In this document: positions 27,460 to 29,424 of the stretch, piece after piece
Layout of the letters: each line of letters starts with the position of its first letter
How positions within the stretch are numbered: position 1 is the first letter of the stretch
Assembly (NCBI GenBank): GCA_020725605.1
Contig: DYER01000108.1
Span: 1-33,689 of the forward strand
Length of the DNA stretch: 33,689 bases
Direction: 5' to 3'
Origin: Ammonifex sp.
GTDB taxonomy: Bacteria > Bacillota > Desulfotomaculia > Desulfotomaculales > DYER01
The notes under the pieces: generated by a model
Seen by the model: only the letters and a program-made list of their open reading frames with translations
Database searches by the model: none
What the model was told of the DNA's origin: nothing
Program-made: the position numbers and the translations under genes

Positions 27460-28227
27460 GTGAATTTGGACGAATTCCTGGACCCCGAACTGGGTGACGA
27501 CCGTCGGGAGCTTTTGGAGCGCCGGCGGCAGGCCTCGGCCCACCTGGCGAAGCTGGAACGGGCTTTGCGCGACGGGGACCTCGGGCAGGCGGAGCGGGTG
27601 CTGGGGTGGCTGGAGGCCACGCTGGGCAAGCAGCGGGAGACGGTGGCCCGGCTCAAGGACAAGCTCCCCACATACGACGTTTCGTCCTACCTCAGAGAGG
27701 AGTTCCACGCAGGGTTTTGGGCCGCCTGCCGGGAGCAGGACCTGCCGGTGACCGGGACTTTTCCGGCCTACGAGGTTTTCCCCTTCAAGGTCCGGGTACG
27801 GCCCGAGCACCGCATCATCGAGGTTAATGAGCGTCAGCTCCGCCTGTTGCGGCCCAGGGCCCTGGCCGCCTATCTGAAGGCCGCCAACGGCCGGCTCTAC
27901 CGCGAGAGGTTCAATGCCGTGGCCTTCCTGGAGGCCCTGGCCGCGGTCTACGACACCATGCTGGCCGTGCGGCGCGCCGCCTACGGGCCCGTGCAGGAGG
28001 ACCTGGACGTGTCGCTGCTGGAGGTGTACGAGCGCCTGACCCCCTTGCCGGCCCAGCGCCGGGCCTACCTGGGGAACATGTTCGCCTTCGACCTCCACCG
28101 CCTGTTTGTGGCCGTGCCCTTACCGATACGATGGAGACTTTGGAGGCCTGTGGCGTGCCGGCGGGGAAGGCAGACCCGAGTGTGGATGCCTACGCGGTGT
28201 CGAGGCGACGCGGCGGGTGGTGCTTGA
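27460..28227 (+). pseudogene. Unrecognised gene, truncated and fused to the CARF nuclease relic
   Basis: I do not recognise the family. From the GTG at 27460 (GGAGGAGG upstream) about 217 codons look like real coding sequence. There is a helical, charged N-terminus with coiled-coil character ([23 protein letters not shown], residues about 13-70) and then an alpha/beta part. That part includes [20 protein letters not shown] and [21 protein letters not shown], and ends at [12 protein letters not shown]. After about 28110 this frame becomes nonsense ([11 protein letters not shown]...) until the stop at 28227, while CARF-like coding continues in another frame. A deletion therefore seems to have removed its C-terminus and the beginning of the next gene. 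Its position suggests an ancillary protein of a type III or CARF module. Confidence 0.6.
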
Positions 28228-29045
28228 CCTCATAGAGCGCGGGTCGTTCTCTACCACGGTGGTGAACTTCACCGGGGGCACCAAGTGCATGTCCGTGGGT
28301 GCCTTTCTGGCGGCCCGGGAGGCCGGGGTGATGGCGCTTTACGTGGACACGGCCAACGAGAGGCTCATCTGGTTTCACCCCGACAGGCAGTGCTCATGTG
28401 GAGAGTTACGGGCGGCCCGTGGACAATGAGAGAACAAACAGGAACGCGTTGTCCAAAGAGGCTTTTGAGCTGGCCGCTGATCTCCTTGCTTTGTGGCCGG
28501 GGTGTCTCCTCACCCTGGAGAAACTGGGCGATGCCCAGAGTCAGGGTCGGCGGTACGTCGCGGCCGCGGAACTCGATGAGACCGTCGCCCTCTTGAGGTC
28601 TTACGGTTACGTGAGGACGGAGGGGAATGACCTGGAGATCACGGCGCGTGGCAAGCCTGTGCTCAACAAGGGGAAGTGGCTGGAGGCCATGGCCTGCGTG
28701 CTTTTGCGCAAGAGCGGGTATTTCGACGAGATCAGGGCAAACGTCTGCCTCCAGAGTATCGAGAACGAGCTGTACCTGGTGGTGGCCCGCAACGGCAAGG
28801 CCGCGGTGCTGGAGTGCAAGGCCGGCTCCCTGGGGGGCCAGGGGACCCTGAACAAACTGCAGTCCATCCGGAGCACCCTGGAGACCTTTGTCCGTGGCTT
28901 TTTCGTCACCAGCCACACCGTAGACCGGATCCCCTGGTATTTCCGCGACCGGGCCGATGGCTACGGAATCAGGAGGGTCGTTACGGTCGAGGACCTCCTG
29001 CACTTATCCGACATCGTCCGGGAAGGGATGCGTGGGGGACCGTGA
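28113..29045 (+). pseudogene. can2: Can2/Card1-type CARF nuclease (DUF1887), truncated and frameshifted
   Basis: Can2/Card1 proteins sense cyclic oligoadenylate by a CARF domain and then cut nucleic acids with a PD-(D/E)xK domain. The pieces here are: frame A 28113 to about 28203 ([18 protein letters not shown], middle of CARF); frame B about 28204-28390 (TTVVNFTGGTKCMSVGAFLA, the CARF NxTGGTK motif, then ALYVDTANERL); and frame A again about 28398-29045, with a winged-helix-like linker and the nuclease. About 45 N-terminal residues are missing. In the nuclease, GKWLEAM and LECKAG (E-x-K at 28812-28820) are conserved. However, the expected Asp of the NELDV motif is Tyr (codon 28773-28775). 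The gene is therefore broken at three places and probably catalytically dead. Confidence 0.8.
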
Positions 29046-29424
29046 TCCTGCTCTACTTCTCGCATTCCCTCACGCCCGTCCACGTAAAGCAAATCGACGA
29101 AATCACGGGCCGGAAGGTCGACGCGTCGTCGAGGTCAACGCGCAAGTAAACCCGCAGCGGCCCCTCGCGCCCCAGGTGGTGGAAATGGCGGACCGGGCGG
29201 GGCTCACGGCGGTGGAGTGGCACACCCTCCCGCTATTGGTGCATCCGCCTTCCCTGAACTACAGCGCGGTGGCGCTGCTAGCCGAACTGCACGGCCGCTG
29301 CGGGTACTTTTTACCCGTGGTCCGCCTCAGGCCGGTACCGGAAAGCCTGCCGCCACGCTTCGAGGTTGCCGAAGTGGTTAACCTGCAGGTGCTGCGCGAG
29401 GAGGCCAGGGCCAAGCGGGAGTAG
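29042..29424 (+). pseudogene. csx15: Csx15-family protein (ring-nuclease type), frameshifted
   Basis: Csx15 is a small CRISPR ancillary protein, proposed as a ring nuclease that removes cyclic oligoadenylate signals. From the GTG at 29042, which overlaps the can2 stop as GTGA, the first frame reads ILLYFSHSLTPVHVKQIDE then ITGRKV, the family N-terminus. The frame then breaks and runs to a stop at 29149. In the next frame VVEVNAQVNPQRPLAPQV, EWHTLPLLVHPP, LLAELHGRCGYF and RFEVAEVVNLQVLREEA continue to 29424 and complete the family. The break is at about 29117-29124, where GTCGACGCGTCGTC suggests a short insertion or one-base loss. Together the pieces give the normal length of about 125 residues. 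The 270 bp that follow contain no gene. Confidence 0.82.

Follow-up and report, generated by a model that had tools for sequence, protein, structure and literature searches.

Why should genes of cyclic-oligoadenylate (cOA) signalling lie broken inside a type I-B CRISPR-Cas locus, and does their state mean that the organism has lost a type III effector? We addressed this question in a stretch of 33,689 nucleotides, referred to here as the window, which makes up the entire contig C106 in a draft assembly (2.20 Mb in 115 contigs, 84.8% complete, 2% contamination). The window carries a type I-B system comprising cas8b, cas7, cas5 and cas3 together with cas1, cas2 and cas4. Three broken genes are found between a MazE/PIN pair (26718-27429) and cas2 (29695); their features are collected in Table 1. 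The same MazE-like/PIN pair occurs in the same place and order in the I-B locus of a related genome, G060 (L135). No remnant of a second cas1 was detected beside the window cas2 by tblastn. Between cas1 and cas8b (19368-20342) the window encodes a TerB-like protein, whose match to PF05099 is weak (E=2e-4, below the cut-off).

Table 1. Features of the broken genes, of the surrounding type I-B locus and of related gene clusters (window positions unless a locus is named)
Feature	Positions	Strand	Evidence or remark
cas8b, cas7, cas5, cas3 (type I-B effector, intact)	20989..26601	+	PADLOC Cas8b 5e-186, Cas7b 6e-55, Cas5b 3e-56, Cas3b 3e-191; single-frame alignment to G060 orthologues
MazE-like antitoxin (26718-27017) and PIN toxin (27001-27429), intact	26718..27429	+	Pfam MazE_antitoxin 4e-10, PIN 5e-11
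unkX (codons 1-217; family length ~265 aa)	27460..28113	+	54-69% identity to closest relatives, matching up to residue 216-219
unkX-can2 fusion point	28110..28116	.	unkX homology ends at 28113, can2 homology (RALTD...) from ~28110-28113; only a few bases assignable to either gene
can2 segment 1 (mid CARF domain)	28113..28196	+	Frameshift-aware alignment to C73, G027 and G020 Can2
can2 frameshift 1	28197..28203	.	Three reference proteins agree on the approximate position
can2 segment 2 (CARF, retains VVNFTGGTKCMS)	28199..28384	+	Pfam CARF_Card1 2.8e-05, PADLOC PDLC01897 1e-21
can2 frameshift 2 and net deletion of ~15 codons	28385..28397	.	
can2 segment 3 (PD-(D/E)XK nuclease domain)	28398..29045	+	Pfam Card1_endonuc 6e-08, PADLOC PDLC01897 7e-48
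csx15 5' part, FSH (S9/H11-type) motif	29042..29119	+	Overlaps can2 end by a few bases; residues per PMC13148439
csx15 frameshift	29120..29126	.	Five full-length references place the shift between 29108 and 29126
csx15 3' part, LHGR and C-terminal Arg motifs, other frame	29125..29424	+	PADLOC Csx15 (PDLC01376) 2.7e-40
cas2, cas4, WYL regulator, csa1 (intact)	29695..33004	+	
CRISPR array start, cut by contig end	33517..33689	+	38-nt repeat, 74-nt spacing
unkX-ATPase-ATPase clusters at cas loci of relatives	L135:7506-10495, L152:4709-7723, L151:6812-9907, L048:6237-9242, L050:5742-8752, L044:10555-13600		

A preliminary description of this DNA had read the three genes, in a row, as a truncated unknown gene (here unkX), a can2/card1-like gene with a lost N-terminus and two frameshifts, and a frameshifted csx15. 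Frameshift-aware alignment and profile matches far beyond chance confirmed this reading for the sequence as given, and alignment to intact can2 and csx15 of relatives, which had been proposed as a check, placed the frameshifts and revealed the N-terminal loss of can2 as well as a deletion of ~15 codons. Homology assigns the second gene to the can2 family: the Card1 CARF domain (PF23400, 2.8e-05) was found in an ORF at 28106-28429, the Card1 endonuclease (PF09002, 6.2e-08) in an ORF at 28398-29045, and the PADLOC model PDLC01897 matched with 7.3e-48. However, no single frame holds a complete CARF plus PD-(D/E)XK protein; the gene is left as three segments in alternating frames. Its homology begins at codon ~58, the N-terminal ~58 codons being absent with unkX fused in their place. 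Of the catalytic set Glu-x-Asp ... Glu-x-Lys, the Glu and ECK are kept, but the metal-binding Asp is Tyr (codon 28773-28775; ELY in the window versus ELD or QLD in relatives). The Asp is present in four other rows of our alignment (A1) and also in L140 and G016. In SthCan2 the Glu/Asp of the nuclease site are E276/D278, and the double mutant is inactive (PMC7969007). Judged from sequence, no active nuclease driven by cA4 can be formed from the three pieces of can2. Changes at invariant columns of can2 (23/111) were no more frequent than in the equally distant G027.

The third gene was identified as csx15 by its 3' part (PDLC01376, 2.7e-40). According to the Csx15 structure, the FSH motif on the one hand and the LHGR and C-terminal Arg motifs on the other correspond to two faces of the cA4 site (PMC13148439). 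The Ser/His (bottom dimer) and His/Arg (top dimer) residues are all present in the window, but they are distributed over two frames and thus do not meet in one polypeptide. At otherwise invariant columns csx15 is changed in 5 of 29 positions, whereas 15 of the 17 other rows carry no such change and one distant row carries 6 in 30. These changes speak for relaxed constraint, although pN/pS does not. The single indel is the weakest part of the case for decay; this frameshift alone could be a sequence error. Measured against three Can2 and five full-length Csx15 references, the lesions support the proposed decay of a can2-csx15 cOA pair within a locus of type I-B. Damage to csx15 was also seen in two other genomes: in G031 the frame is shifted close to the start of the gene by a tandem duplication of 7 bp (L071 about 1850-1880), and in G005 only residues 1-47 match (G005:C3:179984-180124), next to a cmr2 that is a single open frame.

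Could the lesions be errors of sequence or assembly? If so, csx15 and perhaps can2 would be intact, the unkX-can2 join would be chimeric and the pair would serve a III-D system in trans. The assembly is indeed a fragmented draft, csx15 has one indel only and keeps its cA4-site motifs, and pN/pS of both can2 and csx15 is not raised in comparison to intact relatives. Because pN/pS is not raised, the decay must be recent, or some of the indels may be sequence errors; relaxed selection by pN/pS, considered as support for an old decay, was rejected since no difference from intact relatives was seen. However, can2 bears the internal deletion of about 15 codons and the Asp-to-Tyr exchange besides its indels, and the lesion sites are not long homopolymers. 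As a control, eleven other window genes (ten cas and toxin-antitoxin genes compared with G060, and cas6 with its G031 orthologue) contained no indels and were in single frames of nearly full length; the cas genes nearby are unbroken over about 10 kb. The remaining half of the window can2 was found nowhere in the assembly, nor was the second half or any other piece of unkX, and the altered invariant columns of csx15 count against an error as well. Deletion, fusion and catalytic substitution in can2 are not typical base-calling slips, and judging from their number the lesions appear too many for sequencing error. We consider error unlikely as an account of the whole. The alternative raised before, an intact CARF module serving a distant type III system, holds in part: a distant system exists (see below) and csx15 alone may be intact, but can2 has too many lesions for sequencing slips.

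It is also conceivable that the pieces are being re-used rather than decaying, with the nuclease-domain ORF (28398-29045) or the csx15 fragments kept as a new nuclease-dead regulator. This ORF is open over 215 codons with high GC3, and pN/pS is low. However, it lacks a CARF domain and the catalytic Asp, the window can2 and csx15 both sit on long end branches in their trees, and relatives have no conserved counterpart. We regard re-use as very improbable.

A search of the genome for cas10 and csm/cmr genes, also suggested in the preliminary description, found cas10, csm3, csx10 and csm2 on contig C73 of the same assembly. The cas10 is accompanied by five RAMP genes and the locus was typed as III-D. 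The signalling system on this contig is apparently complete: besides cas10, csm3-like genes, csx10 and csm2 there are a CARF-HEPN gene of the Csm6 type and a paralogue of can2 that is intact, as well as a CRISPR array. Its Cas10 (PDLC00919, 1.1e-43), found together with Csm3, Csx10 and Csm2, has GGED as its cyclase motif, likewise present in two aligned relatives; this variant of the motif is listed for cyclases that are likely active, in loci with known effectors (PMC11229360). The repeat of the array that opens this contig (L011:1-290) differs from that of the array at the end of the I-B contig (33517-33689). The III-D genes are followed directly by an unknown gene of 447 aa and by a helicase resembling SngC/BrxHI (L011:11841-15984). 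The III-D locus of Ammonifex thiophilus (L051:5293-9865) has a can2 with an internal stop and a cas10 split into two ORFs.

These results bear directly on the idea that a type III effector was lost from the organism, leaving orphaned signalling genes to rot. The window is without cas10, as had been stated, and its can2 and csx15 are broken. Nevertheless, cas10, III-D subunits and an intact can2 are present in the same assembly, which contradicts a loss of type III immunity; we rate this explanation slightly lower still than sequence error. C73 could be mis-binned despite its tetranucleotide use, which fits the window (r=0.90 versus at most 0.85 for sequences of other genomes). A once-adjacent second type III locus that is now lost is possible.

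As to the origin of the pair, Desulfofundulus thermosubterraneus (L130) carries intact can2 and csx15 with an overlap of a few bases; the 20 kb read there showed no cas10. At what is apparently the same chromosomal site, its relative G051 has a 71-codon can2 remnant after a PIN gene (L133:8907-9119). A recent duplication of the C73 can2 was rejected as the source of the window copy: the C73 protein is 79% identical to the Desulfofundulus copy and only 55% to the window copy. An I-B locus containing can2-csx15 was found in no relative, and the ancestral order was thus not seen.

The first broken gene has a different background. In comparison to full-length relatives whose ends were read, unkX is without its last ~46 residues, and beyond 28113 its frame stays open through foreign sequence until the stop at 28227. 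Matches to the family were obtained in 14 relatives among the first 60 genomes; in a sample of 398 other genomes of the phylum, 17 had a match to the protein. It has no Pfam, PADLOC or NCBIfam match, and a single-sequence structure prediction of the truncated protein yielded a mean pLDDT of 47.5. In relatives whose surroundings were read, full-length unkX copies are followed by two genes which, where tested, match PF10923 (BrxC_BrxD) as well as the PADLOC BrxD and Shango SngB models. In six genomes this unkX-ATPase-ATPase cluster is located inside a cas locus or next to one (Table 1); at other sites it occurs by itself or, in some non-CRISPR copies, with a fourth, helicase-like gene. In G060 and G282 the cluster is located between cas3 and cas1 of an I-B locus colinear with the window, in the order cas8b-cas7-cas5-cas3-(mazE-pin in G060)-unkX-ATPase-ATPase-cas1-cas2-cas4-csa1. 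In G140 and G027 it is found upstream of cas1-cas2-cas4-csa1, in G016 it precedes csa1 and what may be a remnant of cas1, and in G031 it is followed by cas6. Because the cluster sits within or beside cas genes in relatives, unkX is, as far as gene order can tell, part of the I-B locus and not of the cOA module. The preliminary description had placed the truncated gene in the signalling module; it belongs instead to a cluster with BrxC/D-like ATPases that occupies this position in I-B loci of related genomes.

A full-length unkX with two PF10923 ATPase genes is not what the window contains: unkX stops at residue 217, no ATPase-gene remnants were detected in the window by tblastn, and no PF10923 (BrxC/D) gene was matched anywhere in the assembly. 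Searches of the papers available found nothing on DUF2791 with CRISPR or on Shango/SngB/TerB, and no paper with BrxD among the matches listed for BrxD with type I-B. We tentatively suggest that unkX may mark an apparently undescribed type I-B accessory cluster, made up of a ~265-aa unknown protein and two BrxC/D-like ATPases between cas3 and cas1 in some Bacillota, which would work with CRISPR interference or adaptation; the window would then be a natural knock-out that keeps its cas genes.

Taken together, we consider it probable, at roughly three in four, that 28113-29424 is a recently inactivated can2-csx15 pair in a type I-B locus, redundant with the III-D system elsewhere in the genome, and that unkX and can2 were joined by a deletion. 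In the simplest history the pair was acquired by, or moved into, the I-B locus. While intact it may have served the III-D system in trans, with Can2 cutting nucleic acids as cA4 rises and Csx15 mopping up cA4. A single deletion, or a recombination displacing the segment, would have joined unkX codon 217 to can2 codon ~58; this event would have removed the 3' end of unkX and the beginning of can2 and, if the ancestor resembled the relatives, both BrxC/D-like ATPase genes as well. The further indels and the nuclease-site Asp-to-Tyr exchange may have arisen before or after it. Against this explanation, the missing ATPase genes could be unassembled in the fragmented draft. Since an intact can2 and an effector of the Csm6 type are present at the III-D locus itself, loss of the pair was probably neutral. 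A search of the assembly for other off-switches, covering Crn1, Csx15 and Csx20, gave no Crn1 and no further Csx15 or Csx20 match; speculatively, the response might be less easily damped once the only Csx15 found had been lost.

The decayed pair itself is ordinary genome wear of known families. It shows that cOA-effector pseudogenes in a type I locus do not imply lost type III immunity, and it supplies a further example in favour of the view that cOA effectors and ring nucleases may be sited apart from the Cas10 that would drive them (PMC11229360, PMC12409355). The more interesting lead is unkX with its ATPase partners in I-B loci, which merit a study of their own.

With regard to known systems, the resemblance to the BREX BrxC/BrxD and Shango SngB ATPases lies in the model matches of the two genes after unkX in relatives, whereas the window is without both ATPase genes and keeps unkX only in part. 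Like Can2/Card1, the cA4-activated nucleases with CARF and PD-(D/E)XK domains, the second window gene has CARF4--CARF_PDDEXK (PDLC01897) as its best PADLOC model, is 55% identical over 213 residues to the intact C73 paralogue and keeps the CARF motif, the nuclease Glu and ECK. Unlike these, it lacks the N-terminal ~58 codons, has two frameshifts, a net internal deletion of ~15 codons and the Asp-to-Tyr exchange, and is fused to an unrelated gene in an I-B locus. Csx15 is a cA4 sponge or slow ring nuclease (PMC13148439); although the frameshift in the window splits the Ser/His from the His/Arg motifs and leaves no polypeptide with the whole cA4 site, the gene is 69% identical to an intact orthologue and directly follows can2, as in Desulfofundulus.
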